Shown: piece after piece, positions 13,129 to 48,434 of the stretch | How the letters are laid out: each line of letters opens with the position of its first letter | Position numbering within the stretch: position 1 is the first letter of the stretch | Assembly: GCA_016875875.1 (NCBI GenBank) | Contig: VGOP01000007.1 | Span: forward strand, 1 to 64,000 | Reading direction: 5' to 3' | DNA from: Chloroflexota bacterium | GTDB lineage: Bacteria > Chloroflexota > Dehalococcoidia > GIF9 > UBA5629 | Length of the DNA: 64,000 nucleotides | Made by a program: the position numbers and the translations under genes | The notes under the pieces: model-generated | The model's input: the letters and a program-made list of their open reading frames with translations, nothing else | What the model was told of the DNA's origin: nothing | The model's database searches: none

Positions 13129-13551
13129 TCAAGCACTTGACTCTCCCAGGGTTCTGAGAACCTTTTCAAAGGTAGCCATGTCCTTTTTGGAGAATGGCTG
13201 TTTTAAGGTCGTGTCTAACTCGTCAGCGAACTCCAAAATACGAGGTCCTAGTTCTTTTGCCTTTTCAGTAAGGAGTACTAATGCTGACCTTCTGTCATCA
13301 GGGTTTGGCTTACGTTTCACATAGCCACTCTTTTCCAGCCTGTCGATAATCCCGGTAAGTGTTGAGCTGTCCAGTGAGACCCGGTCTCCAAGCTCACCGA
13401 TGGTGATGTTGTCGTCCATCCATAAGGCGTTGAACACAAAGTACTGTGGTGGTGTTAGCCCGAATGGGGATAGTCGCTTTTCGTAGTAGTCGTATACACG
13501 GCGCATCACCCGTCCCAAGTTGAAACAGATATGTTTTCTAGCATCATACAT
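13129..13551 (-). CDS. MarR-family transcriptional regulator
   Basis: The 140-residue protein has the winged helix-turn-helix of MarR. LTPPQYFVFNALW leads to the DNA-recognition region ITIGELGDRVSLDSSTLTGIIDRLEKSGYVKR, and the wing is RKPNPDDRRSALVLLTEKA. Such regulators are dimeric repressors released by small ligands, often phenolic or acyl compounds. Its promoter and an overlapping palindromic operator lie immediately upstream, so autoregulation is likely. The genes downstream on the same strand (flavin oxidoreductase, Fe-S proteins, ligase) and the divergent catabolic operon are the natural targets. Confidence 0.92.
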   Translation of the reverse strand: MYDARKHICFNLGRVMRRVYDYYEKRLSPFGLTPPQYFVFNALWMDDNITIGELGDRVSLDSSTLTGIIDRLEKSGYVKRKPNPDDRRSALVLLTEKAKELGPRILEFADELDTTLKQPFSKKDMATFEKVLRTLGESSA

Positions 13552-13620: not shown

Positions 13621-13735
13621 GCAGTTGAAGGAAAAGCCGTTTTCTATTTATCGTTCATGGCTTCACTAATGGTAAGTGTCAACAGAAGGGACACTCATTC
13701 GTAAAATTTATTTTGGGAACGTTATTAGTCCAAGG

Positions 13736-13764
13736 TTGACAGGTAATAAGGTCTATGCTATAGT
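13736..13764 (+). promoter_or_regulatory. sigma-70-type promoter of the catabolic operon
   Basis: TTGACA (13736-13741) and TATAGT (13759-13764) are separated by 17 bases. A TGC just before the -10 gives an extended -10. It sits about 40 bases upstream of the GGAGG and ATG of the HMGCS/DUF35 gene, which also argues that the gene does not start at the earlier in-frame codon near 13676. Confidence 0.75.
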
Positions 13765-13804
13765 CCTTTCGGCCCTAAAAACACTGACATTAGGAGGTTT
13801 ATTA

Positions 13805-15247
13805 ATGGTAGGTATTAAGTCTTACGGAGCTTATATCCCACGGTATAGAATGAACCACAATACTATCTTCGGAGCGGTAGGTTTTCTGGGAACATTTCCC
13901 ACACCGGGTGAGAAGTCAGTTGCCAATCATGATGAAGATACTCTTAGCATGGCGGTAGCTGCCGGGATTGACTGCATAAACGGCTTGAAGCGAGAGCAGA
14001 TAGATGGCTTATTTCTAGCTACTACTAGTCAGCCGTATATGCTGAGGCAAAATTCGGCAATTGTAGCTGTTGCTCTTGACCTTCAACCTACTATAAGGAT
14101 TGCTGACTTCATTGGTTCTAGCAAGGCAGGTACCAGTGCTCTCGTCTCTGCTTTTGATGCTGTAAAGGGAGGCACTTCAAGCAATATCCTGGTCTGTGCT
14201 TCTGACTGTCGATTAAGTAAGCCTGGCGGTCCTCAGGAACATCTCTATGGTGATGGTGCGGCAGCTCTGCTGCTGGGGAATGAGGGGGTGATTGCTACTT
14301 TGGATGGTTCCTATTCTGTTTCCTATGATTTCCCTGACCGCTGGAAAACAAGTGCAGAAGAATTTGAACATGCCTGGGAAGACAGGTTTATTCGGGATGA
14401 AGGTTATGCCAAAATGATACCTGAAGCGATTTCTGGGTTACTAAAGAAATGTAATTTGAACATTAAGGATTTTGCCAAAATTATATTTCCGGGCATTTAT
14501 GCTAGAGAACATGCTGCCATAATCAAACGATTGGGTGCTGAGCCGGGTCAGATTCAGGATACGTTGCTCGACAAGGTGGGTGATACTGGGGCAGCTTCGC
14601 CTTTGATGATGTTGGTGGCTGCACTTGAAGACGCCAAACCGGGAGACAAAATACTGGTCGCTAGTTTTGGAAACGGCAGCGACGCTCTATTATTCCAGGT
14701 GACTGAAAACATCAAGAAGGTTGGGGATAGGCGTGGAGTGAAAAAGCATTTGGCTTTAAAAAAGGAACTCGCCAGCTATGAGAGATATCTCGCCTTCCGC
14801 AATTTGGCTCCGATGGATACAGGCATGCGTGGTGAAATGAGTCTTCGCACTCCGATGTCCGCGCTTTTCAGAGAGCGGAAGGCAATTTTGTCGCTTTGTG
14901 GTTCCAAATGTAAAAAGTGTGGCACGCCACAATATCCGTTCCAGAGAGTGTGTGTAAATCCTGATTGCGGTGCCGTTGACCAGATGGACGACTACCGTTT
15001 TTCAGACAAGAATGGTGTTGTTTTTACCTATACTGGTGATAATTTGGCTGCCAGCATTGACCCGCCGGCAATCTACGGATTCGTCGATTTTGAAGGAGGA
15101 GGCAGATTCTGGTTTGACTTTACGGACTGTGACCTTGATTCAGTTAAAGTAGGTATGCCAGTGGAGATGACCTTCCGCAGAAGATATTTGGACGAACCCA
15201 CTGGTGTTTACGGCTACTCGTGGAAGGCAACGCCGGTACGCGCCTAA
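13805..15247 (+). CDS. HMG-CoA-synthase-fold protein fused to a DUF35 zinc-ribbon/OB domain
   Basis: The 480-residue protein has two parts. Residues 1 to about 330 follow the archaeal-type HMG-CoA synthase fold (GIKSYGAYIPRYRM, EKSVANHDEDTLSMAV, a DTGAASPLMML block and SFGNGSDALLFQ). Residues about 365-480 carry a zinc ribbon (CKKCGTPQYPFQRVCVNPDC) and OB fold of the DUF35 type. The acyl-accepting Cys of HMG-CoA synthases (FACKAGT) is Ser106 here (GSSKAGT), and the usual catalytic His block is not recognisable. An ordinary condensing reaction is therefore doubtful. A retro-aldol or scaffold role beside the thiolase encoded next is conceivable. The ATG at 13805 has AGGAGG upstream. Confidence 0.8.
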   Translation: MVGIKSYGAYIPRYRMNHNTIFGAVGFLGTFPTPGEKSVANHDEDTLSMAVAAGIDCINGLKREQIDGLFLATTSQPYMLRQNSAIVAVALDLQPTIRIADFIGSSKAGTSALVSAFDAVKGGTSSNILVCASDCRLSKPGGPQEHLYGDGAAALLLGNEGVIATLDGSYSVSYDFPDRWKTSAEEFEHAWEDRFIRDEGYAKMIPEAISGLLKKCNLNIKDFAKIIFPGIYAREHAAIIKRLGAEPGQIQDTLLDKVGDTGAASPLMMLVAALEDAKPGDKILVASFGNGSDALLFQVTENIKKVGDRRGVKKHLALKKELASYERYLAFRNLAPMDTGMRGEMSLRTPMSALFRERKAILSLCGSKCKKCGTPQYPFQRVCVNPDCGAVDQMDDYRFSDKNGVVFTYTGDNLAASIDPPAIYGFVDFEGGGRFWFDFTDCDLDSVKVGMPVEMTFRRRYLDEPTGVYGYSWKATPVRA

Positions 15248-15280: not shown

Positions 15281-16483
15281 ATGGCAGAAGGTATTAAGGA
15301 CAAGGTGGCTATTATAGGGATGGGTTGTACCAAATTTGGGGAGTTGTGGAATAAAGGTGCTGAGGACTTGATGGTTGACGCATTTCAAGAATGTATTGAA
15401 GATGCGGGGATAGACAAAAAAGACCTTCAGGCAGCCTGGTTTGGCGTGCATTTTGAGGAGCAGAGTGTGGGCAAGGGTGCTACATCATTGGCATTGGCGC
15501 TGAAGTTGCCTTTCATCCCCGTGACTAGGGTAGAAAACTTCTGTGCTACTGCCACAGAAGCTTTTAGGGGTGCTTGTTATGCAGTGGCTTCAGGAGCTTA
15601 TGACATTGCGTTAGCTCTAGGTGTGGAGAAGCTTAAGGATACTGGGTATGGTGGTCTTCCTGGTGGTCCTGGCCTCATGGGAACAAAAAATGCACTCATC
15701 ATGCCTAAACTGACCGCTCCGGGGAGTTTTGCCATGATGGCTACCAGATACTTTGCCGTGTATGGGCTCAGTCCTGAGGAAGGCAAGAAGATGTTAGCTA
15801 AGGTATCGGTTAAAAGCCATTACAACGGGTCTAGGAACCCTAAGGCACACCTGCGCCGCGAAGTAACTGAGGAACAAGTTCTGAATGCTCCTATCATCGC
15901 ATGGCCGCTGGGGCTTTTTGACTGCTGTGGGGTCAGTGACGGCTCGGCGGCAGCTATCGTTACTCGAGCTGACATGGCTAAGAAATTGAGGCCCGACCCC
16001 GTGTACGTCAAGTCGCTCCAGGTCGCTCTGAGTTCGGGTGAGGAATTGATGTATACCAAGTGGGACGGTGCTCATGTTGAGACTGGGTACCGTGCTGGAG
16101 TACTGGCTTATAATGAGGCAGGTGTAAAGAATCCGCGCAAAGAGATAAGCATGGCCGAGGTACATGACTGTTTCTCCATCACTGAAGCCGTAACTATGGA
16201 GGATTTGCAGTTTAGCCCGAGGGGACGGGTTAAGGATGACATCGAGGCTGGACGCTTCAACTTGGATGGTGAGCAGCCTATTCAGCCTGATGGCGGATTG
16301 AAGTGTTTCGGGCATCCGATTGGTGCTTCTGGTCTAAGAATGCTATATGAGATGTACAAACAGTTGCAGGGCAAAGCTCAGATGCCAGAGCGCCAGCTAA
16401 AGAATCCCAAACTGGGTCTCACCCATAACATGGGTGGCTTCCCGGCAATGAACATCGTCAGCGTTGCAATCGTAGGACTCTAA
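15281..16483 (+). CDS. Thiolase-superfamily protein, SCP-x/lipid-transfer-protein type
   Basis: This 400-residue thiolase-fold protein keeps a nucleophilic Cys88 in VENFCATATEAFR, a CFGHPIGASG block with the catalytic His near 347, and HNMGGFPAMN near 384. In that last block His replaces the second catalytic Cys of classical thiolases. This pattern is typical of sterol-carrier-protein-x thiolases and of Ltp-type proteins that act on bulky side-chain CoA esters. It follows the HMGCS/DUF35 gene by 33 bases with GGAGGAG in front. DUF35 proteins are common partners of such thiolases, so a complex is likely. Expected reaction: thiolytic or retro-aldol release of a short acyl unit. Confidence 0.85.
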   Translation: MAEGIKDKVAIIGMGCTKFGELWNKGAEDLMVDAFQECIEDAGIDKKDLQAAWFGVHFEEQSVGKGATSLALALKLPFIPVTRVENFCATATEAFRGACYAVASGAYDIALALGVEKLKDTGYGGLPGGPGLMGTKNALIMPKLTAPGSFAMMATRYFAVYGLSPEEGKKMLAKVSVKSHYNGSRNPKAHLRREVTEEQVLNAPIIAWPLGLFDCCGVSDGSAAAIVTRADMAKKLRPDPVYVKSLQVALSSGEELMYTKWDGAHVETGYRAGVLAYNEAGVKNPRKEISMAEVHDCFSITEAVTMEDLQFSPRGRVKDDIEAGRFNLDGEQPIQPDGGLKCFGHPIGASGLRMLYEMYKQLQGKAQMPERQLKNPKLGLTHNMGGFPAMNIVSVAIVGL

Positions 16484-16512: not shown

Positions 16513-16986
16513 ATGGCTGAAGGGTCTATAATTACAGATGAGTTAAAAAAACTAATAGGTGTCCCTGGAGAGCCGATTACTTTCAAGGTTGAAGAAGGGG
16601 CAATCCAAAGGTATGCGCAGGCTATAGGTGACCCCAACCCTTTATTTAACGATATAGAGAACGCCAGCAAAAATAAATATGGCAGGTTGATTTGCCCTCC
16701 AGGTTTCACCGGCTGGCCAATCAAAGGTGGAATTTCTGTCTTCAAACTCGTTGATTCGCTGATTAAGGCTGGGGCGCCAACTCGACTCCTTGATGGCGGT
16801 GTTGAATTTGAATTTGTCGAGCCTGTCGGCGCTGGAGATGTGCTAACTGCCACGCCTAAGATAGCTAGCATGACTGAGCGAGAAACGAAAATGGGCAAGA
16901 CTATGTTCACTACGGTCGAGACCACTTTCGTGAATCAGAAAGGCAAAGTGGCTCTCAATGGCCGATCGACATTCATCCAATTCTAA
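16513..16986 (+). CDS. MaoC-like hydratase, FAS1-like dehydratase (non-catalytic partner type)
   Basis: This 157-residue single hot-dog domain has the N-terminal hydratase signature VEEGAIQRYAQAIGDPNPLF and FTGWPIKGGISVF. In R-specific hydratases the active Asp and His sit in a DxxxxH motif. Here the Asp40 position is kept but Phe45 takes the place of His. It is followed 17 bases later by a second MaoC protein with an intact dyad, so the two probably form a heterodimer that hydrates an enoyl-CoA, with this subunit shaping the acyl pocket. A strong AAGGAGG precedes the ATG. Confidence 0.82.
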   Translation: MAEGSIITDELKKLIGVPGEPITFKVEEGAIQRYAQAIGDPNPLFNDIENASKNKYGRLICPPGFTGWPIKGGISVFKLVDSLIKAGAPTRLLDGGVEFEFVEPVGAGDVLTATPKIASMTERETKMGKTMFTTVETTFVNQKGKVALNGRSTFIQF

Positions 16987-17003: not shown

Positions 17004-17474
17004 ATGGCTAAACAAGTTTATTACGAGGATGTTGAAGTTGGTACTGAAGTAACTCCAGTGGCTAAAATTGCCACGTCACGGATGCTGGTTCAGTGGGCGG
17101 GAGCCTCGGGAGATTTTAATCCCTTGCATTACGAAGACGATTTTGCCAAAGCTATGGGCGTAGGTGCTCCTATTGTGCATGGTGCTCTTAAACGCGCTTG
17201 GCTGGGCCATTTGATTACTGACTGGATTGGGGAGCAGGGGGTGCTGAAGAAGTTGTCGTGCCAGTACCGCGGCATGGACTACCCCCGGAAGATGAAAACT
17301 ATGGAAGAGCCACATGATGGTGAAACATGGTGGTGCAAGGGCAAGGTGGCCAAGAAATACGAGGAGGGTGGCGAGCATCTTGTTGAGTGCGAGATTTGGG
17401 TGGAGAATGGGAAGGGGGATAAAACGACACCGGGCGCAGCTTTAGTCGCCTTACCGTCAAGGGGCAAGAAATAG
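17004..17474 (+). CDS. MaoC-like enoyl-CoA hydratase (catalytic partner)
   Basis: This 156-residue hot-dog protein contains GASGDFNPLHYEDDFAKAMG followed by APIVHGALKRAW. Asp37 and His42 form the intact DxxxxH catalytic dyad of R-specific enoyl-CoA hydratases. It should add water across the double bond made by the acyl-CoA dehydrogenases of the operon, giving a (3R)-hydroxyacyl-CoA or its equivalent. Immediate adjacency to a His-lacking MaoC gene suggests a two-subunit enzyme. GAGGAGG precedes the ATG. Confidence 0.85.
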   Translation: MAKQVYYEDVEVGTEVTPVAKIATSRMLVQWAGASGDFNPLHYEDDFAKAMGVGAPIVHGALKRAWLGHLITDWIGEQGVLKKLSCQYRGMDYPRKMKTMEEPHDGETWWCKGKVAKKYEEGGEHLVECEIWVENGKGDKTTPGAALVALPSRGKK

Positions 17475-17589: not shown

Positions 17590-18369
17590 ATGGGAAAGCT
17601 AGATGGAAAGGTAGCTGTTGTCACTGGAGCAGCACGTGGCATAGGCGAGGCTGATGCGCTGTTGTTTGCCAAGGAGGGTGCTGCTGTTTTGGTGAGTGAC
17701 GTTGACGAAGCCCCGTTGAAGGAAGTGGTCCAGAAGATAAAGACTGCTGGGGGAAAGGCCGAAGCTTGCGCTGGCGATGTTACAAAGCTAGAAGATTGTC
17801 AAAAAATGATGGATACAGCAGCGGAGAAATTCGGCAAGATTGATATCCTGGTCAACAACGCCGGACTTACCAGAGATGCCCTGATACATAAGATGACTGA
17901 TGCCCAGTGGGATTTGTGTGTTGATATTAGTCTTAAGGGAACCTTTAACTGTATTAGAGCTGCCTCTAAATACATGATGAAGGAAGGACATAATGGGCGG
18001 ATAATCAACGTGGCCTCAGTAGCCGGGCTGATGGGAAACGTTGGGCAAATTAACTATTCTGCTGCTAAGGCAGGCCTCATTGGGCTCACTAAGACGGTAG
18101 CCAGAGAATGGGGAAGATTTGGCACCACCTGTAATGTCGTTGCTTATGGTTTCGTTGATACCCGGTTGACCAGAGAGAAAGAAGCGCAGCAAGAAGAGGT
18201 GGGTGGTGAACTGGTGGGAATACCCAAGAAGGTCAGGGATATGGTTCTTCTGCAAATAAAACCGATGACGCCTGAAGATGCTGCCAAGCCTGTCCTGTTC
18301 CTAGCTTCGGATGATGCTGCCTTTATCACCGGTCAGGTATTTAATGTTTCATCAGGGATGTATATGTAG
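17590..18369 (+). CDS. Short-chain dehydrogenase/reductase (FabG-like)
   Basis: The 259-residue classical SDR has the cofactor motif VVTGAARGIGEADA near residue 10 and the NNAG block (LVNNAGLTRDALIHKM). The catalytic Ser and Tyr/Lys are in NVASVAGLMGNVGQINYSAAKAG. It most likely oxidises a hydroxyacyl-CoA intermediate with NAD(P), in step with the MaoC hydratase. AAGGAGGT precedes the start by about 12 bases. A 115-base gap separates it from the MaoC genes and shows no clear terminator, so it is probably in the same operon. Confidence 0.85.
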   Translation: MGKLDGKVAVVTGAARGIGEADALLFAKEGAAVLVSDVDEAPLKEVVQKIKTAGGKAEACAGDVTKLEDCQKMMDTAAEKFGKIDILVNNAGLTRDALIHKMTDAQWDLCVDISLKGTFNCIRAASKYMMKEGHNGRIINVASVAGLMGNVGQINYSAAKAGLIGLTKTVAREWGRFGTTCNVVAYGFVDTRLTREKEAQQEEVGGELVGIPKKVRDMVLLQIKPMTPEDAAKPVLFLASDDAAFITGQVFNVSSGMYM

Positions 18370-18459: not shown

Positions 18460-19392
18460 ATGGCAAAAAGGCTAGAAGGTAAGGTAGCGGTAGTTACCGG
18501 TGCTGGGCGTGGCATTGGTAGAGGTGAGGCATTAGCCCTGGCTGCTGAAGGAGCCAAGGTGGTGGTTAATGACCTCGGTGGTGCAGGTGATGGTACTGGT
18601 GCCGCTAAAACCCCGGCTGCGGAGGTGGTTCAGGAAATTGAAAAGCTGGGTGGAGAGGCCGTCGCTAACTATGACTCCGTAGCCGCTCCAGAAGGTGGGG
18701 AAAACATCATAAAGACGGCAATTGATACTTTTGGCCGGATTGACATTGTAGTCAACAACGCTGGCATCCTCAGAGACCGCATGGTTTTCAATATGAGTGA
18801 AGAGGAATGGGACGCGGTCATCAAAGTTCATTTGTATGGTACTTTCCATTGTACAAAGCCGGCGTGTGTTTATTTCAGGCAGCAGAGAAGCGGCAGGATA
18901 ATAAATACCTCTTCCACATCCGGGTTAGGTAACATGGGACAAGCCAATTACAGTGCTGCTAAGGAGGGGATTGTCGGTTTCACCAGGACGGTAGCCAGAG
19001 ACATGGGGAGATATGGTGTAACTTGCAATGCTATCCGTCCCAGTGCCGGAACAAGGCTAACCTTGACGCCGGAACTGAGAGCCGCCTGGGAGAAGGCTAA
19101 AGCCGAAGGCTTTCGTCCTGTATCGGCTGGAATAACGCTAGATGATTTGCAAAAGATGACCCCTGATATGATAGCACCCTTAGTTGTATACTTGTGCACT
19201 GATGAGGCAGCGAACATAAACGGTTATACTTTCTTAGTTGGTGGTGGTGAAATAGGTATTTATTCCGAACCAGAGGTAAGAAGCCGCATATGTAAAGATG
19301 GTATATGGACACTGGGTGAGCTTATCAGCATTGTGCCTAAGACTCTGGCTAGGGAATTGATAAACCCGGCACCACCGCAACCACCGAAATAA
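18460..19392 (+). CDS. SDR dehydrogenase of the multifunctional-enzyme-2 / 17beta-HSD4 type
   Basis: The 310-residue SDR has the pattern VVTGAGRGIGRGEALALAAE and then NDLGGAGDGTG, an insertion after the second strand found in the dehydrogenase unit of peroxisomal MFE-2. The NNAGILRDRMVFNM block and the active-site STSGLGNMGQANYSAAKEG follow. MFE-2 dehydrogenases oxidise (3R)-hydroxyacyl-CoA made by MaoC-type hydratases, which matches the neighbouring genes. The C-terminal tail (about 265-310) is longer than in FabG and ends in PAPPQPPK. AAGGAGG precedes the ATG. Confidence 0.85.
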   Translation: MAKRLEGKVAVVTGAGRGIGRGEALALAAEGAKVVVNDLGGAGDGTGAAKTPAAEVVQEIEKLGGEAVANYDSVAAPEGGENIIKTAIDTFGRIDIVVNNAGILRDRMVFNMSEEEWDAVIKVHLYGTFHCTKPACVYFRQQRSGRIINTSSTSGLGNMGQANYSAAKEGIVGFTRTVARDMGRYGVTCNAIRPSAGTRLTLTPELRAAWEKAKAEGFRPVSAGITLDDLQKMTPDMIAPLVVYLCTDEAANINGYTFLVGGGEIGIYSEPEVRSRICKDGIWTLGELISIVPKTLARELINPAPPQPPK

Positions 19393-19610: not shown

Positions 19611-20813
19611 ATGGATTTCAAGCTTAGTGAGAAAGAGAAGACTCTCATAGCAGAGATTGCCAAATTCGCCAAAAAAGAGTTGCCTGAGGATTTTGTTGGC
19701 ACTCATCTAATTGACCAGGAATACAGAGACTTTGAATTTGAAATATCCATGTCTAAGAAGCTAGCCCAGAATGGGTGGCTGGTTATGAGTTGGCCGAAGG
19801 AATATGGGGGGCAAGGCGCTTCTTTAACGGAACAAACGGTGTATGAGATGGAGATATCCTATTGGGGGATACCAGGGGCGTGGATGGGTATAAGTGGCAC
19901 ACAATGGGTTGGTCCCTGCCTTATGATGTTTGGCACGGAAGAGCAGAAAAACAAGTATCTGCCGTTAATTGCCTCGGGAGAACGAGATGGTGTCTGGTGC
20001 ACGGGCTATAGTGAGCCCAACGCAGGCTCTGATCTTGCTAACCTGCAGACCCGGGCTGTAAGAGATGGAGACTATTACATTATCAATGGCCAAAAAGTGT
20101 GGACTAGCAAAGCCCAGCATTCGCGATGGTGCTGGCTTCTGGTCAGAACCGATTCCACTGTCGCCAAGAAGCACCGTGGGCTCAGCCTCTTTATCGTGGA
20201 CATGAAGAGCCCAGGAGTTACAGTTAACCCTATATTGAACTACTACGGTCGGCATCACTTTAATGAGGTATTTTTCGATAATGTGAGGGTTCCGGCTTCT
20301 AATCTGGTCGGTGAGGAGAACAGGGGGTGGTATCACCTAATGCAAGCGCTCGCGTTTGAAAGACGTAGTGTGGCACCATTAGCCTATGGAAGTTCCAAGA
20401 GATTGTTGGAAAATCTAGTTAAGTATGTCAAGGAGACTCAGCGCCAAGGTGAGTCCTTGAGCCAAATTCCTGCTATTCGCCATAAGTTGGCTGAGATGGC
20501 AATAGACGTTGAGATAGTTAAACTGTTTGCCTACCAGTTTACTTGGCGGGTATCGCAAGGTGCAATACCCGCCTACGAATCATCGAGGAACAAGATTATG
20601 GGTGACGACGTGCTTAGACGTATGGCTATTTCTGGGGCAGAGATTTTGGGAGTCTACTCTCAAGTTGATCCGGATTCAAAATGGGCTCGACTCAAGGGAA
20701 CCATTCAAGGGGCTTATCTCGGTTTCCCCGGTGCCATGATTGCTGCTGGGACTGCCGAGGTGGAGAGAAGCATTATAGCTCAATTTAGATTGGGTTTACC
20801 CAAATCATATTAG
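19611..20813 (+). CDS. Acyl-CoA dehydrogenase, catalytic subunit candidate
   Basis: This 400-residue acyl-CoA dehydrogenase has SEPNAGSDLANLQT, the FAD/substrate strand INGQKVWTSKAQH and a C-terminal IAAGTAEVER. The YEGT-type Glu is Ala, while Glu250 in LAFERRSVAPLAYG occupies the isovaleryl-dehydrogenase-type base position. It is followed 27 bases later by a second, shorter dehydrogenase with no candidate base. The pair resembles the two-gene, alpha2beta2 dehydrogenases of actinobacterial steroid side-chain breakdown. GAGGAGG precedes the ATG. Confidence 0.88.
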   Translation: MDFKLSEKEKTLIAEIAKFAKKELPEDFVGTHLIDQEYRDFEFEISMSKKLAQNGWLVMSWPKEYGGQGASLTEQTVYEMEISYWGIPGAWMGISGTQWVGPCLMMFGTEEQKNKYLPLIASGERDGVWCTGYSEPNAGSDLANLQTRAVRDGDYYIINGQKVWTSKAQHSRWCWLLVRTDSTVAKKHRGLSLFIVDMKSPGVTVNPILNYYGRHHFNEVFFDNVRVPASNLVGEENRGWYHLMQALAFERRSVAPLAYGSSKRLLENLVKYVKETQRQGESLSQIPAIRHKLAEMAIDVEIVKLFAYQFTWRVSQGAIPAYESSRNKIMGDDVLRRMAISGAEILGVYSQVDPDSKWARLKGTIQGAYLGFPGAMIAAGTAEVERSIIAQFRLGLPKSY

Positions 20814-20840: not shown

Positions 20841-21974
20841 ATGGACTTCAGTTTTACGGAAGAGCAAGAAATGCTCCGGACTATGGCGAGGGATTTTCTG
20901 GCCAACGAATGTCCCAAGTCTAAGGTCAGAGAGTTGGATAAAGACGAAAAGGGCTATGATCCACAGATGTGGCGTAACATGGCGGAACTGGGATGGATGG
21001 GACTTGTTTTCCCGGAGGAGTATGGAGGAACAGGAGCCAGTTTTGTTGACCTGGTAGCCTTGATGGAGGAAATGGGAAGAAACATCGTACCAGGCCCTTT
21101 CTTTTCTACTATTGCCCTCTGTGCCTTGGCCATTTTAGAATTCGGCACAAATGAGCAGAAAGCTAAGTTCTTACCGCAAATAGCCAAGGGCGAGACTATT
21201 TGGACCTTGGCTTCGATGGAACAAACAGGTAGCTATGAAACCTCAGAGATAAACCTCAGCGCTCGCCCTGACGGTGATGACTATGTGCTAGAGGGTGAGA
21301 AGATTTTTGTCTCCGACGCCCATGTAGCCAATTACATCCTTGTGGTAGCGAGGACAGGCAAAGGCAAAGCACCACAGGCAAGAATCACAGTGTTCATAGT
21401 TGATGCTAAATCTCCAGCACTTAGAATAGAAATAATACCCACTATGGCGGGAGACAGGCAGTTCCAGGTGATTTTCAATAAAGCTAAGGTGTCCAAGAAT
21501 GATATCTTGGGAGCTGCGGGTGGAGGTTGGGAAGTAGTCAATTTCATCTTGCAGAGGGCCGCTGTCTTGAAATGTGCTGAGATTTCAGGCGCATGTCAAG
21601 CTGTCCTCGATATGACTAGTGCCTATGCCAAAGAGCGGGTGCAGTTCGACCGACCTATCGGGTCTTTCCAGGCAGTCCAACAAAAACTGGCTGATATGCT
21701 TATAGATATTGAGGCGATTCAATATCTTGTTTATCAGGCGGCCTGCGGCATAAGCGAAGGCGAGCCATCTCAGCTGCAGATTTCTGTAGCCAAAGCCAAG
21801 GCAAGCCAAGCTTACGAAAAGATTTGCATTGATGGAATCACGGCTCACGGAGCTATTGGCTTTACCTTTGACCACGATATAGGACTATATTTCCGTCGTG
21901 TCAAAGCAGCGGAGTTTGCTGCTGGAGACGTTGACTTACACCGGGGGAAAATAGCTGCTGAATTAGGACTCTAG
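20841..21974 (+). CDS. Acyl-CoA dehydrogenase, probable non-catalytic partner subunit
   Basis: The 377-residue acyl-CoA-dehydrogenase-fold protein begins MDFSFTEEQEMLRTMARDFL and ends in a typical helical domain (AHGAIGFTFDHDIGLYFRR). Neither usual base position holds Glu: Gln238 in ILQRAAVL stands at the isovaleryl-type site, and AAGDVDLHR replaces the YEGT segment. The middle-domain motif usually written TEPxAGSD is MEQTGSYETSE here. It therefore probably serves as the second subunit of a heteromeric enzyme with the gene just upstream. AGGAGGCG precedes the start. Confidence 0.85.
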   Translation: MDFSFTEEQEMLRTMARDFLANECPKSKVRELDKDEKGYDPQMWRNMAELGWMGLVFPEEYGGTGASFVDLVALMEEMGRNIVPGPFFSTIALCALAILEFGTNEQKAKFLPQIAKGETIWTLASMEQTGSYETSEINLSARPDGDDYVLEGEKIFVSDAHVANYILVVARTGKGKAPQARITVFIVDAKSPALRIEIIPTMAGDRQFQVIFNKAKVSKNDILGAAGGGWEVVNFILQRAAVLKCAEISGACQAVLDMTSAYAKERVQFDRPIGSFQAVQQKLADMLIDIEAIQYLVYQAACGISEGEPSQLQISVAKAKASQAYEKICIDGITAHGAIGFTFDHDIGLYFRRVKAAEFAAGDVDLHRGKIAAELGL

Positions 21975-28269: not shown

Positions 28270-29979
28270 CTACTCCTCTCTTAGCTCTCGGCGAGATACT
28301 TTGCCTACGTCTGTCTTAGGCACCTCGCCTCTGAATTCTACGATTGTTGGGCATTTGTATGCAGCCAACCTTTCAGCGCAATATTTCATGATGTCCAATT
28401 CGGACAATTTGCCCCTTGCCTCTGTCTCAAGTACGACTACTGCTTTGACTTTCTCTCCAACCTCAGGGTCGGGGACTCCAATTACACCTGCTTCTTTAAT
28501 TTGCGGATGAGCGGCCAGGACTTCCTCTACCTCCCTGGCAAATACAACCTGCCCCTTGTGCTTGATCATATCACGTTTTCTGTCGTAGAAGAAGAAATAG
28601 CCGTCTTCATCCATTCTGCATAAGTCGCCGGTTCGAAGCCAAATTTCGCCGTCGATATCTGCGAATGTTTCCTTAGTTGCCTCTGACTTATCCCAGTATC
28701 CTACCGCTACTTGTGGACCTTTGACTAAAAGCTCGCCTATCTCGCCAACGGGAAGAAATTTTGTACTATCAGGATCGGCTATTCCAGCTACGGTGTTAGG
28801 TAGGGGTACACCGAAAGAGCCGACTTTTGTCTTCCTGTATGGGTTGATCATTCCCACAGAGGTTGTTTCAGTCATCCCCCAACCCTCGTGGATTTTAGCG
28901 CCTGTCCGTTTTTCCCAGCCTTTAGCCGTGTCCTCAAGAAGGATGTCGGCGCCGGAGACAAGAACTTTGATGCGTTTCCAATCGACTCTGTCGGTGCGGT
29001 GATAATCCCTAAGGTATTCATACAAAGACGCAACGCTGAAAAAAATAGTTGCCTTGAAACCTTCCGTAGCATTCAACAGGTCGTCAAGGTCAATGGTGGT
29101 GAATATTACCAAAGTATAGCCCTGAGACAATCCACCCAGCATGACTACTGCTTGACCATAGATATGATAGAAGGGCAAATAGGCCAATAGGGTCTCCTTG
29201 CCCTCCTGGACAATATCACCCCAGAATTTGTCGCCAAGACGTTGGGAAGAGATGTTATAGTGGGTTATCATGACACCTTTGGGCAGCCCTGTCGTTCCTC
29301 CCGTGTAGGGCAGGGTTACTAAATCCTCTCTAATGTTGAATTTAATTTTCGGTGGATTAGGTGGATAGTTTTTAATCAAGTCCTTGAATTGATAAAATCC
29401 CTCTCTTTCGTATATTTCAGCGGGTGGCGCTGCCATCTTTTGATACACAGCCCGGAGTACGCTGCTGCCCATGAACCTTTTCAGCCACGGCAAATAATCG
29501 GTGATGTTGACCAAGATGACCTTATCTAGCTTGACTCCTGCCCGTTCAACATTATCGTAAAGATTATCCTGACAGATAATCATTCTGGCGCCACTGTCTT
29601 CAATTTGATGTTTGATCTCAGGACTGACATAAAAAGGGCTGATAGCAGTCAGGACAGCTCCAGCTTTTAGGGCTCCGAAATAGGCTATGACGAACTGGGG
29701 TGAGTTCAGTAGTAGTAAAGCAATGCGGTCTCCTTTTTTGACTCCTAAATCATGTAGGGCTGTAGCAAATCTATCGGTGTGGTCTCTCAACTCGCGGTAG
29801 CTTATCTTCCTGCCGTAGAATATCAGGGCAGTTTTGTCTTTCCATTTGTCTGTGGCTTCGTCAAAGGTGTCGACCGCGGACTGTTCTGGAATTTCGATAT
29901 CCTGTGGTACCTCTTTGAGATAAAACTTTAGCCATGGTCTTGATTCGTATATAGCCTTGTTTGTATCGACCGCCATCAT
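28270..29979 (-). CDS. AMP-forming acyl-CoA ligase, copy 1 of a tandem pair
   Basis: The 569-residue ANL adenylating enzyme shows LPYTGGTTGLPKGVMITHYN, GWGMTETTSVGMINPY, WLRTGDLCRMDEDGYFFFYD and the C-terminal catalytic Lys in PKTDVGKVSRRELR. It activates a carboxylic acid to its CoA ester. The protein is nearly the same, residue for residue over long stretches, as the one encoded at 30229-31944, and even the upstream DNA is duplicated. It is directly followed by livG. AGGAGGTG precedes the two possible ATG starts. Substrate unknown; a fatty, branched or aromatic acid imported by the Liv system is plausible. Confidence 0.9.
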   Translation of the reverse strand: MMAVDTNKAIYESRPWLKFYLKEVPQDIEIPEQSAVDTFDEATDKWKDKTALIFYGRKISYRELRDHTDRFATALHDLGVKKGDRIALLLLNSPQFVIAYFGALKAGAVLTAISPFYVSPEIKHQIEDSGARMIICQDNLYDNVERAGVKLDKVILVNITDYLPWLKRFMGSSVLRAVYQKMAAPPAEIYEREGFYQFKDLIKNYPPNPPKIKFNIREDLVTLPYTGGTTGLPKGVMITHYNISSQRLGDKFWGDIVQEGKETLLAYLPFYHIYGQAVVMLGGLSQGYTLVIFTTIDLDDLLNATEGFKATIFFSVASLYEYLRDYHRTDRVDWKRIKVLVSGADILLEDTAKGWEKRTGAKIHEGWGMTETTSVGMINPYRKTKVGSFGVPLPNTVAGIADPDSTKFLPVGEIGELLVKGPQVAVGYWDKSEATKETFADIDGEIWLRTGDLCRMDEDGYFFFYDRKRDMIKHKGQVVFAREVEEVLAAHPQIKEAGVIGVPDPEVGEKVKAVVVLETEARGKLSELDIMKYCAERLAAYKCPTIVEFRGEVPKTDVGKVSRRELREE

Positions 29980-30001
29980 GTCACCTCCTCATTTACTATG
30001 A

Positions 30002-30100
30002 GCAAAGTATAGCATAGCATTTGTGTTTTGCCAACATGGAGCAGGTGTCTTTGTGTTATTTAATTGGGAGAGAAACCTACCCACGATTGATTTTTTGGCT
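30002..30100. repeat. Direct repeat, copy 1: duplicated upstream region of the acyl-CoA ligase
   Basis: This stretch begins GCAAAGTATAGCATAGCATT and recurs with few changes at 31968-32064, about 1.97 kb away. It carries the promoter of each ligase copy. Its presence at both places shows that the duplication unit was gene plus promoter. The rest of the gap to 30228 shows no gene. Confidence 0.85.
30006..30034 (-). promoter_or_regulatory. sigma-70-type promoter of ligase copy 1
   Basis: On the minus strand TTGGCA (30029-30034) and TATACT (30006-30011) are 17 bases apart, with TGC just before the -10 (extended -10). The start codon lies about 30 bases downstream. The same promoter is conserved in copy 2, where sequence around it has changed, which supports function. 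Confidence 0.75.
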
Positions 30101-30228
30101 CTCTGAAAGTTTCTCCTGATACTTGCATCATAGCACAAAATTCCCCGTTTGAGAAGATTATATTGCCTCTTCTTTTATCCAGCTAATGCACTCGAAGTGC
30201 CTGTTGCAGGCAGCTCACCGAAGCTATT

Positions 30229-31944
30229 TTATAATTCGTCCTCTCTCAGTTCCCGGCGAGATACTTTTCCAACATCTGTTTTAGGCACTTCACCCCTGAA
30301 CTCTATAACTCTGGGGCATTTGTAGTGAGCCATATTTTCCGCACAATACTTCATAATTTCATCTTCTGAGACTTTGCCTCTTGCTTCTGTCTCAAGAACA
30401 ACGATTGCTTTGACTTTCTCTCCAACCTCCGGGTCAGGGACTCCGATGACCCCGGCCTCTTTAACTTTTGGATGAGCGGCCAGGACCTCCTCTACCTCCC
30501 TGGCAAACACAGCCAGACCCTTGTATTTAATCATGTCACGTTTTCTATCGTAGAAAAAGAAATAGCCGTCTTTATCCATTCTGGCTAAGTCGCCGGTTCG
30601 AAGCCAGGTTTCACCGTCGATAGGCGCGAACATTTTTTTCGTCTCTTCCGGCTTATGCCAGTATCCTTTGGCTATTTGTGGCCCTTTGATTGCCAGCTCG
30701 CCTATCTCGCCAACGGGAAGAAATTTGGTACTTTCAGGATCGAGAATTCCAGCTACAGTGTTAGGTAGAGGTACACCAAAAGAGCCGACCTTTGTTTTCC
30801 CGTATGGGTTGATCATTCCCACAGAGCTTGTCTCAGTCATTCCCCAACCTTCGTGGATTTTAGTATTTGTCCGTTTCTCCCAACCTGCCGCGGTATCCTC
30901 AAGAAGGGAGTCAGCACCGGAGACGAGGACTTTGATGCGCTTCCAATTGACTCTGTCGGTGCGGTGATAATCTCTGAGGTATTCATACAAAGACGGAACG
31001 CTGTAGAAAATGGTTGCCTTATTGCTTTCGATTGCGTTTAACATGTCATCGAGGTCGGGGGTAGTAAATATCACTAGGGTGTACCCCATAGACAATCCTC
31101 CCAGCATACTCACCGCCTGACCGTATATGTGGTAGAAGGGCAAATAGGCTAATATGGTCTCCTTGCCCTCCTGGACAATATCACCCCAGAACTTTTCGCC
31201 TAGGTATCGGGCAGCGGTGAGATTGTAATGAGTTATCATGGCCCCTTTGGGCAGCCCCGTTGTTCCTCCCGTGTAGGGGAGTGTTACTAAGTCCTCCCTA
31301 ATGTTGAATTTAATTTTCGGTGGATTGGGCGGGTAGTTCTTAATCAAGTCCTTGAATTGATAGAATCCCTCTCTTTCGTAGATTTCAGCAGGTGGCGCTG
31401 CCATCTTTTGGTACACAGCCCGGAGCACACTGCTGCCCAAGAATTTTTTCATTCCCGGCAGGTATTCGACGATGCTGGTCAAGATAACCTTATCTAGCTT
31501 GACTCCTGCCCGTTCAACATTATCGTAAAGGATATCCTGACAGACGATGATCTTGGCGCCACTGTCTTCAATTTGATGTTTGATCTCAGGACTGACATAA
31601 ACAGGACTGATTGCAGTTAAGGTAGCCCCGACTTTAAGGGCTCCGAAATAGGCTATGATGAACTGAGGCGAGTTCAGTAAAAGCAAAGCGACCCGGTCTC
31701 CTTTTTTGACTCCTAAGTCATACAGGGCTGTAGCAAATCTATCGGCGTGGTCTCTTAACTCGCGGTAGCTTATCTTCCTGCCGTAGAATATTATGGCAGT
31801 TCTGTCTCTCCATTTATCCGTAGATTCGTCAAAGGTTTCGACCACGGACTTTTCTGGAATTTTGACATCCGGCGGCACCTCTTTGAGATAAAACTTTAGC
31901 CACGGTCTTGATTCATATTTTGCTTTGTTTGTGTCGGCTTTCAA
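30229..31944 (-). CDS. AMP-forming acyl-CoA ligase, copy 2 of a tandem pair
   Basis: The 571-residue paralogue of the 28270-29979 enzyme has the same motifs (PYTGGTTGLPKGAMITHYNL, GWGMTETSSVGMINPY, TGDLARMDKDGYFFFYDRKR, PKTDVGKVSRREL). The start is placed at TTG 31942-31944, five bases after GGAGG. It aligns with the start of the other copy (DTNKAKYESRPWLKFYLKEV in both, one change). Differences are scattered, which fits duplication followed by drift; substrate specificity may have split. Both copies have their own promoter. Confidence 0.9.
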   Translation of the reverse strand: MKADTNKAKYESRPWLKFYLKEVPPDVKIPEKSVVETFDESTDKWRDRTAIIFYGRKISYRELRDHADRFATALYDLGVKKGDRVALLLLNSPQFIIAYFGALKVGATLTAISPVYVSPEIKHQIEDSGAKIIVCQDILYDNVERAGVKLDKVILTSIVEYLPGMKKFLGSSVLRAVYQKMAAPPAEIYEREGFYQFKDLIKNYPPNPPKIKFNIREDLVTLPYTGGTTGLPKGAMITHYNLTAARYLGEKFWGDIVQEGKETILAYLPFYHIYGQAVSMLGGLSMGYTLVIFTTPDLDDMLNAIESNKATIFYSVPSLYEYLRDYHRTDRVNWKRIKVLVSGADSLLEDTAAGWEKRTNTKIHEGWGMTETSSVGMINPYGKTKVGSFGVPLPNTVAGILDPESTKFLPVGEIGELAIKGPQIAKGYWHKPEETKKMFAPIDGETWLRTGDLARMDKDGYFFFYDRKRDMIKYKGLAVFAREVEEVLAAHPKVKEAGVIGVPDPEVGEKVKAIVVLETEARGKVSEDEIMKYCAENMAHYKCPRVIEFRGEVPKTDVGKVSRRELREDEL

Positions 31945-31967
31945 TGTATCCTCCTCTTTTGCTAAAC

Positions 31968-32064
31968 GCAAAGTATAGCATAGCATTTGTGTTTTGCCAA
32001 TATGGGGCAGGTGTCTTTGTGTTATTTAATTGGGGAAGAAACGTGCCACGATTGATTTTTGGCT
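31968..32064. repeat. Direct repeat, copy 2: duplicated upstream region of the acyl-CoA ligase
   Basis: Counterpart of 30002-30100. It ends exactly at the stop codon of the enoyl-CoA hydratase gene (32065), so this copy probably represents the original context behind that gene. Confidence 0.85.
31972..32000 (-). promoter_or_regulatory. sigma-70-type promoter of ligase copy 2
   Basis: TTGGCA (31995-32000) and TATACT (31972-31977) on the minus strand have a 17-base spacer and extended -10, identical to copy 1. It lies 28 bases upstream of the TTG start. Confidence 0.75.
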
Positions 32065-45777: not shown

Positions 45778-45996
45778 TTAACGTCAATCCGAGTTTGAAA
45801 CATTTACGGTTGAATGCAAAAAGCCACACACTATTTTACCTTTGTTTTGCAGATATATCAACACGCACGTAGGTTTAGGCGGAAATCAGCGAGGGAACGA
45901 TGAAATTTCTATTGAGGTCTAGATAAGGATAAATTATCTATAAGTTTTCAAATTTCAAAAAATCGACTATAATTGAAAGCTAAAATGGTGAACAAT

Positions 45997-47250
45997 ATGG
46001 CAAAGAAAGTAATACTTGCCTATAGCGGAGGGTTGGATACATCTGTCATTTTGAAATGGCTAGTTAACAAGGGATACAACGTCATTTGCTTCGTTGGTAA
46101 TGTTGGTCAAAAAGAGGATTTTGGAGAAATAGAGAAGAAAGGACTGAAAACTGGTGCCTCGAAAGTTTACACTGAAGACCTGAGAGGTGAATTTGTTACT
46201 GATTTTATTTTCCCAGCCCTCAAAGGAAATGCTATGTACGAAGGGAGATATTTATTAGGTACCTCATTAGCTAGACCTCTGCTTGCGAGAAAACAAATTG
46301 AAATTGCTGAGAAAGAAAACGCTGAATTCGTTGCTCATGGAGCAACTGGCAAAGGCAACGATCAAGTAAGATTCGAGCTAGCTTATTACGCACTCAATCC
46401 AAAAATAAAACTTATTTGTCCGTGGAAAGATCCAGAATTCTTGGCAGAATTCAAGGGGAGAAGTGACCTTATTGATTATGCCAGAAAATGGAAAATTCCT
46501 ATCAAAGCTAGTAGGAAGAAGCCGTACAGTGAAGATGAGAATTTAATGCATATCAGCCACGAAGCGGGAATTTTGGAGAATCCGCTATTTAGACCACCCG
46601 AAAATTTATTTAGCAGAACAACTTCCCTCTCAATGGCTCCGAATAAAGAAACTATAATTGAAATTCATTTTCAAGACGGAATTCCCACTAAAATGGTAAA
46701 TCGAAATGATGGTACAACAAAAACGAAACCTTTGGAATTGTTTATCCATATCAACGAATTGGGGAGTAAAAATGGCATTGGAAGAGTTGACATGGTTGAG
46801 AACAGATTTATTGGGATAAAATCCAGGGGGGTTTATGAAGCACCAGGAGCAACAATCCTCTGGCTTGCTCATAGAGACCTCGAAGGCATAGCTATGGATA
46901 AAGAGGTTATGCACTTGAGAGATATGCTTATACCTAAATTTTCAGAATTGATCTACAATGGATTCTGGTTTTCTCCTGAGATGGATTTTTTAATGTGCGC
47001 AATCGATAAGAGCCAAGAAGCTATCGATGGAAAAGTACTAGTCTCGTTATATAAAGGAAACGTAAATATAGTTGGCAGAGAATCGCCTACTTCTCTTTAT
47101 GATAAGGAATTATCTAGTATGGATGTGGAAGGGGAATTTGATGCTGTAGATTCAAGAGGATTTATTAACATCAATGCTATAAGATTAAAGGCCCATTATC
47201 TTGTTTTGGGAAGAAGAAAACCTTATATATGGCGTGAAAAGAAAAAATAG
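45997..47250 (+). CDS. argG: Argininosuccinate synthase
   Basis: The protein, about 417 residues, ligates citrulline and aspartate with ATP. The N-terminal P-loop [15 protein letters not shown] is diagnostic. [28 protein letters not shown] and [20 protein letters not shown] are family blocks. The ATG at 45997 aligns with family starts; ATG 45985 and TTG 45973 are also in frame. No Shine-Dalgarno is visible, unlike nearly all other genes here, and a TATAAT lies only about 24 bases upstream. The DNA is visibly more AT-rich than its neighbours and Lys/Ile/Asn-rich in protein terms, suggesting transfer. argH follows eight bases later. Confidence 0.93.
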
Positions 47251-47258
47251 TACTTAAT

Positions 47259-48434
47259 ATGAAACTTTGGCAAAAAGATTACAAACTAAATAAGCAAATA
47301 GAGGAATTTACAGTTGGAGAGGACTATATTCTGGATCAGAACCTTATAATATATGATTGCATCGCGTCCGTAGCCCATGCAAAAATGCTTGGCAAGATTG
47401 GAATATTGAAGAGAGAAGAAGTTCAAAAACTAGTTAAAGAAATCAACCATATTATTGAATCCTGTCAAAAGGGGCAGTTTAAAATTTCAAAAGAACAGGA
47501 AGATTGTCACACAGCTATTGAAAGTCATCTGACAAAGAACTTAGGTGATTTGGGCAAAAAAATACACACTGCAAGATCGAGAAATGATCAAGTGCTTACC
47601 GCTCTAAGATTGTATTATAAAGATCAATTGAATGATTGTAAGGAACTGATTAATGAATTAATTAAACAAATAAAGATATTTATCAAAAGATACGGAGAGA
47701 TAGAATTTCCTGGCTACACTCACACTAGAAAAGCTATGCCTTTATCCATCGCTCTTTGGGGAAGCTCCCTCCTCGACTCAATGAAAGACAATTTAATAGC
47801 TCTTAACTTTGCTTTAGAGTTAATTGACCAATCGCCCCTGGGAACCGGAGCAGGATATGGTATACCTCTTACGATAGATAGGAAATATACTGCGAAATTA
47901 TTAGGTTTCAAAAATATACAGAAAAATCCTATTTATGCACAGAATAGCAGAGGTAAATATGAGTCTACCATCTTGCACATCTTAAGCCAAATAATGTTTG
48001 ATTTGAATAAAATCGCATCTGACTTAATCCTTTTTAGCATGCCGGAACTTGGTTATTTTGAATTACCTGAAGAACTCTGCACAGGAAGTTCGATGATGCC
48101 ACAGAAGAAAAATCCTGATGTGTTGGAGGTATTGAGAGCAAAATATCATGTTGTTATTTCGTATGAATTCCAAATTAAAAATATAATTAGCAATCTTTTA
48201 TCAGGTTATAATCGTGACCTCCAACTTACAAAAGAACCTACGATGAAGGGTTTGGAAACAACAAAGGAGAGTCTGTATATAACGAGCCTCGTATTTTCAA
48301 AACTAAAAGTTAATAAGAAAAATTGCGAGCAATCTTTAACAAAGGATATCTATGCGACAGAAGAAGTATTTGGATTAGTTAAAAAGGGAATTCCATTTAG
48401 AGAAGCTTACAAAACAATTTCCAAAAAATACTAA
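47259..48434 (+). CDS. argH: Argininosuccinate lyase, apparently C-terminally shortened
   Basis: The 391-residue lyase has HTARSRNDQVLTALRLYYKD, the TGAGYGIPLTIDR block and the catalytic-loop signature GSSMMPQKKNPDVLE. It releases arginine and fumarate from argininosuccinate. Typical family members have about 450-460 residues and continue well beyond the GIPFREAYK block. Here the chain stops ten residues later, at a junction with a nadE remnant, so the last helices are missing. The catalytic residues are all present; activity is uncertain. The gene is strongly AT-rich, like argG. No clear ribosome site. Confidence 0.88.
   Translation: MKLWQKDYKLNKQIEEFTVGEDYILDQNLIIYDCIASVAHAKMLGKIGILKREEVQKLVKEINHIIESCQKGQFKISKEQEDCHTAIESHLTKNLGDLGKKIHTARSRNDQVLTALRLYYKDQLNDCKELINELIKQIKIFIKRYGEIEFPGYTHTRKAMPLSIALWGSSLLDSMKDNLIALNFALELIDQSPLGTGAGYGIPLTIDRKYTAKLLGFKNIQKNPIYAQNSRGKYESTILHILSQIMFDLNKIASDLILFSMPELGYFELPEELCTGSSMMPQKKNPDVLEVLRAKYHVVISYEFQIKNIISNLLSGYNRDLQLTKEPTMKGLETTKESLYITSLVFSKLKVNKKNCEQSLTKDIYATEEVFGLVKKGIPFREAYKTISKKY

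Follow-up and report, generated by a model that had tools for sequence, protein, structure and literature searches.

The stretch of DNA analysed here (the window) comprises 64,000 nucleotides of the genome of an uncultured member of Chloroflexota, which has 1.97 Mb and is 96.75% complete. On the forward strand, at 13805-15247, it carries a gene encoding a protein of 480 amino acids that combines an HMG-CoA synthase (HMGCS)-like half with a DUF35 domain. We assign the start to the ATG at 13805, since a ribosome-binding site (AGGAGG, 13792-13797, +) can be read directly in the sequence, a promoter-like site precedes it and the homologues begin there as well; a longer open reading frame from the in-frame GTG at 13676 was rejected on the same grounds. 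The putative promoter, assigned by consensus match only, is of the sigma-70 type (TTGACA-17-TATAGT, 13736-13764, +) with a TG before the -10 element, matches 11 of 12 consensus positions and was the top site in the scan of the region. Residues 1-335 (13805-14809, +) form an HMGCS-fold domain of the thiolase superfamily, followed at residues ~355-478 (14867-15244, +) by the DUF35 domain, a ChsH2 Zn ribbon plus OB fold identified with Pfam, where PF01796 scores above its cut-off and PF12172, with 20.6 bits, under its cut-off of 23.2. The DUF35 half also matches 6esq_E in sequence (E 3e-14) as well as PhlB. Its zinc cysteines C369, C372, C383, and C388 are conserved in 147-148 of the 148 distinct fused HMGCS-like/DUF35 proteins that served as the homologue set for all residue counts given below. 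An AlphaFold2 model built with 50 sequences has high confidence along its whole length (mean pLDDT 92.8, pTM 0.93). Judged from its sequence, the product is a genuine fusion of an HMGCS-fold domain and DUF35. It has a relative with 95% identity in Chloroflexi, and its other near relatives are from Dehalococcoidia.

A gene for a MarR-type regulator, assigned by domain scan, lies divergently upstream (13129-13551, -). The adjoining SCP-x thiolase of the original prediction is real: the gene at 15281-16483 (+), 33 nt downstream of the fused gene, encodes an SCP-x/SCP2-type thiolase (NF004810/PRK06157), which scores 627 bits against NF004810 with its cut-off of 403. Its catalytic residues C88, H295, C297 (in the motif HDCF), and H345 are intact and a GHP motif is present. 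The thiolase gene is followed by two MaoC, two SDR and two acyl-CoA dehydrogenase genes, all in the same orientation and 17-218 nt apart. According to domain scans and motifs, the first MaoC protein (16513-16986, +) is HadA-like (FAS1_DH) and has the catalytic His replaced (GDPNPLF), which makes it a probable non-catalytic partner, and the second (17004-17474, +) is a HadB-like hydratase with the motif GDFNPLH. With one member carrying the His and one lacking it, as in HadA/HadB, the pair is organised on the same principle as the thiolase complex. The first SDR (17590-18369, +) is FabG-like with a YSAAK motif, and score comparison identifies the second (18460-19392, +) as the kind of SDR that elsewhere forms one chain with the HMGCS-like/DUF35 protein; it can be assumed to be an MFE-2-like (3R)-hydroxyacyl-CoA dehydrogenase. 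The two acyl-CoA dehydrogenases are PimC-like (19611-20813, +) and PimD-like (20841-21974, +), as assigned by domain and family scans. CoA ligase genes are also among the neighbours in the window.

The HMGCS-like half stays under the cut-offs of the HMG-CoA synthase families: residues 1-335 reach 229.2 bits against NCBIfam NF003274, below the cut-off of 244, and 152.5 bits against TIGR00748 with a cut-off of 353. The motif FACKAGT of the archaeal enzymes reads GSSKAGT in this protein, and in the alignment Ser106 (14120-14122, +) stands where the archaeal enzyme has its nucleophile, Cys114. The original prediction of an HMGCS-fold/DUF35 fusion with Ser in place of this Cys is thus borne out; it had understated the extent of the loss, since the same alignment puts Thr74 (14024-14026, +) at the position of the catalytic Glu82 and Pro229 (14489-14491, +) at that of the catalytic His238. 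Among the 148 fused homologues, Glu is never found at the Glu82 position (Thr in 134), Cys never at the Cys114 position (Leu 68, Thr 30, Gln 20, Ser 4) and His never at the His238 position (Pro 89, Tyr 27); the Glu-Cys-His triad is complete in all eight true Chloroflexota HMG-CoA synthases compared. As far as the alignment tells, the whole HMGCS triad is gone from the protein and HMGCS catalysis is lost. No other Cys takes over, as multiple alignment with HMG-CoA synthases revealed no conserved Cys replacing the nucleophile at this site among the 148 fused homologues, and C57, which alone among the Cys residues of the HMGCS half is broadly conserved (128/148), is far from the nucleophile in sequence. 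Ser106 itself is incidental. The residue at the Cys114 position drifts freely, which is evidence against both a Ser nucleophile and a Ser-based retro-aldolase, and Ser as replacement nucleophile was rejected. The preceding Ser105 is a Ser in 118 of the 148 fused homologues, and since MucA and the PhlA subunit of CsATase likewise have a Ser at this position without a following Cys, it probably rather characterises the inactive subunits.

Structure comparison also places this half next to the HMGCS-like subunits of three-component complexes. The top match, with Z 48.6, is 6esq_I from the archaeal thiolase/HMGCS complex, followed by CsATase (46.9), PhlABC (5mg5_A, 46.2), and MucABC (43.3), and the stand-alone HMG-CoA synthases come behind these with Z below 40. 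PhlABC (PpATase of Pseudomonas protegens, 5m3k), CsATase (9skh) and MucABC (9vbo) each contain an HMGCS-fold subunit without the Cys, a Zn-ribbon DUF35 bridge and a catalytic SCP2-like thiolase, as is proposed here. In PhlABC, PhlA has neither the Cys nor the Glu of HMGCS, the substrate is contacted by residues of PhlC only, and PhlA and PhlB are believed to be necessary for a properly formed complex (PMC6392133). The absence of Glu in addition to Cys is seen in PhlA and in our protein, and MucA (PDB 9vbo) is without the catalytic Cys, too. A Cys-less HMGCS-like subunit that is bridged via DUF35 to a thiolase is hence already known from PhlABC (PMC6392133) and not new. However, the corresponding A and B parts are encoded by separate genes in PhlABC, CsATase and MucABC and form one chain of 480 amino acids here, and these systems perform biosynthetic C-acyl transfer, whereas our gene pair is set among genes for β-oxidation. 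The archaeal thiolase/HMGCS complex (6esq) has the same three folds and is the best sequence match of both the thiolase and the DUF35 part, but its triad is intact and it makes HMG-CoA, whereas the fused protein is without the triad and its genome without HMG-CoA reductase. The benzoylsuccinyl-CoA thiolase BbsAB and the aldolases ChsH2-Ltp2 and Shy-Sal resemble the system in being degradative thiolase-fold enzymes with a DUF35 partner, but have no HMGCS-fold component.

The fused proteins are not peculiar to this genome and constitute a large family, with members in Chloroflexota, Thermodesulfobacteriota, Myxococcota, sphingomonads, Rhodococcus, and some archaea. A published description of the family was not found in the literature searched, although one may exist elsewhere. 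In the phylogenetic tree the fused proteins form one clade (SH-aLRT 91) and the true HMG-CoA synthases a separate one (SH-aLRT 98). PhlA falls with the latter at moderate support (SH-aLRT 83) and the HMGCS-like half of the fused family stands apart from it; PhlA is therefore used as a precedent in architecture, and the tree does not establish common descent or a shared loss of catalysis. The pairing with the thiolase is nearly constant: 137 of the 148 fused genes have one as direct neighbour, and in 31 related genomes all 41 PRK06157 thiolases lie on the same strand within 1 kb of a fused gene. All 114 full-length partner thiolases retain Cys88, His295, Cys297, and His345. A gap of ~0.9 kb separates both genes in four genomes, with a crotonase-like gene inside it in the two that were read, and on two haloarchaeal plasmids the order is reversed with the thiolase first. 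For the remaining 11 fused genes no adjacent thiolase was detected, some of them being at contig ends or on contigs that contain masked bases or carry other genes downstream. The same genome contains a second fused gene with its own thiolase (L026:5506-8193, contig 1), which is 45% identical to the first, and some relatives have seven or eight matches. A split three-gene set of thiolase, DUF35 and an HMGCS-like protein without the Cys occurs in another Chloroflexota genome (L153:5528-8343), which also encodes a true HMG-CoA synthase; there the HMGCS-like protein pairs with PhlA in the tree. Furthermore, a pair of fused gene and thiolase with 57% identity to the window protein was found in the archaeon Candidatus Methanoliparum (L085:6001-8654), where it sits beside ordinary archaeal genes, so that a transfer between the domains is likely.

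Fusions and gene orders in other phyla indicate with which reaction the family is associated. In Thermodesulfobacteriota and Myxococcota, 22 fused proteins continue into an SDR domain that resembles the product of the gene at 18460; complete SDR domains of this kind score ~200-240 bits to that SDR, compared with ~115-145 to the other SDR of the window. The one SDR-fused protein scanned against Pfam has in addition an SCP2 domain at its C-terminus. Plasmids of Variovorax and Sphingomonas carry genes for SDR and MaoC, then the fused gene and the thiolase gene, and two Novosphingobium plasmids carry SDR, fused gene and thiolase one after the other, while other relatives of the fused gene adjoin crotonases. 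These SDR/SCP2 fusions and gene orders tie the family to oxidation of (3R)-type hydroxyacyl-CoA and thiolysis. The peroxisomal MFE-2/SCPx system, which the SDR and SCP2 fusions in sulfate reducers and relatives recall, consists of an SDR-type (3R)-hydroxyacyl-CoA dehydrogenase, a MaoC-type hydratase, an SCP2 domain and an SCP2 thiolase, which act on bulky or branched acyl-CoAs. It is not known to have an HMGCS-fold or DUF35 component.

A similar pair is found in connection with estrogen degradation. On plasmid p3 of Novosphingobium sp. ES2-1 (L165) an acyl-CoA dehydrogenase gene, a dehydrogenase gene, the fused gene and a thiolase gene follow each other, and the fused protein is without the triad. 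The edc cluster of Novosphingobium tardaugens has the same gene order around EGO55_13555, which is annotated as ‘HMG-CoA synthase’ and located between genes for a thiolase and a 3-hydroxyacyl-CoA dehydrogenase; its function was left open by the authors of this study on estradiol degradation, who proposed another activity such as thiolase (PMC7793797). From gene order alone, we infer that EGO55_13555 and the fused gene of ES2-1 are orthologous, and the fused family may explain this type of unassigned gene in estrogen-degrading bacteria.

Taken together, the protein encoded at 13805 likely serves a heteromeric, degradative thiolase as scaffold subunit without catalytic activity of its own, in a pathway for the degradation of fat- or steroid-type compounds. 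Of the new enzymatic or scaffold role suggested originally, the scaffold fits best, whereas a functional swap of Ser for Cys does not agree with the free drift at this position. Without Glu, Cys and His, the HMGCS-fold half would perform no Claisen condensation through that site and would persist as a platform. It is linked in one chain to the DUF35 domain, which in related complexes bridges the HMGCS-like part to the thiolase. The 3-ketoacyl-CoA would be produced by the acyl-CoA dehydrogenases together with the MaoC and SDR proteins, thiolysis would be carried out by Cys88, His295-Cys297 and His345 of the thiolase, and the complex would thereby complete a round of β-oxidation. Since the protein is extended by an SDR (with SCP2) in other phyla, the scaffold might also dock the (3R)-hydroxyacyl-CoA dehydrogenase, whose product would then pass directly to the thiolase. 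Triad loss, intact thiolase residues, pairing, fusion and operon are seen in the sequences and the folds are predicted, whereas complex formation, reaction direction, channelling and the substrate are inferred. The substrate is probably bulky or alicyclic, because a similar pair sits in the estrogen-type cluster. More tentatively, the whole family could represent scaffolds of a β-oxidation metabolon, which join thiolase and (3R)-hydroxyacyl-CoA dehydrogenase (in sulfate reducers with SDR and SCP2 in a single chain) and whose remodelled, yet conserved pocket binds the acyl-CoA in transit. A scaffold without catalysis of its own would offer a testable model for the degradation of bulky acyl-CoAs in bacteria and a few archaea. 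The names under which databases list these proteins, HMG-CoA synthase, 3-oxoacyl-ACP synthase III C-terminal and OB-fold protein, mislead pathway reconstruction.

The family-specific residues R136, D150, W191, E192, and R194 are kept in ~90% or more of the fused family members. The HMGCS-like half is thus not merely decaying, and its remodelled pocket may bind or convert something. That this half has acquired a new catalytic or ligand-binding role via Arg136, Asp150, Glu192, and Arg194, for example a grip on bulky substrates or a hydrolysis, we nevertheless consider rather unlikely: these residues are mostly absent from HMGCS and PhlA, which speaks for selection on this part, but the site has no conserved nucleophile, in the best-studied relative the HMGCS-like subunit carries out no chemistry, and the conserved charged residues could equally be structural or interfacial. 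Even less probable is a biosynthetic multi-component acyltransferase like PhlABC that transfers an acyl group to a carbon acceptor. The three parts are indeed the same, and PhlABC and its Chromobacterium homologue are among the closest solved structures by sequence, but the surrounding genes encode acyl-CoA dehydrogenases, hydratases, SDRs and CoA ligases, a relative is located in the estrogen-type degradation cluster, and PhlC is a much poorer match to the thiolase than the archaeal thiolase and SCP2 thiolases are. The HMGCS fold and the partial motif KAGT are in favour of an active HMG-CoA synthase that uses Ser as nucleophile, or of a retro-aldolase. This reading can practically be dismissed, as it is largely refuted by the alignment counts for Ser, Cys, Glu and His, the genome has no HMG-CoA reductase and the thiolase motif is HDCF, unlike the YDCY of the aldolase CtSal (PMC12329534). 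No HMG-CoA reductase (PF00368) was found in the 96.75% complete genome and Dxr of the MEP pathway is present; hence there is no need for mevalonate, and a mevalonate role of the protein was rejected.

Two further regions of the window were noted besides the scaffold and thiolase genes. At 28270-31986, two tandem acyl-CoA ligase genes that are 84.5% identical adjoin genes for a branched-chain-type ABC transporter and are probably the result of a recent duplication. At 45973-48434, an argG-like gene with a G+C content of 0.38 and an argH-like gene with 0.34, compared with 0.47 for the window, are flanked by two glycosyltransferase genes sharing 60% identity. The argH-like gene matches its family model only up to position ~385 of 455 and looks cut short, and the segment has probably been acquired.
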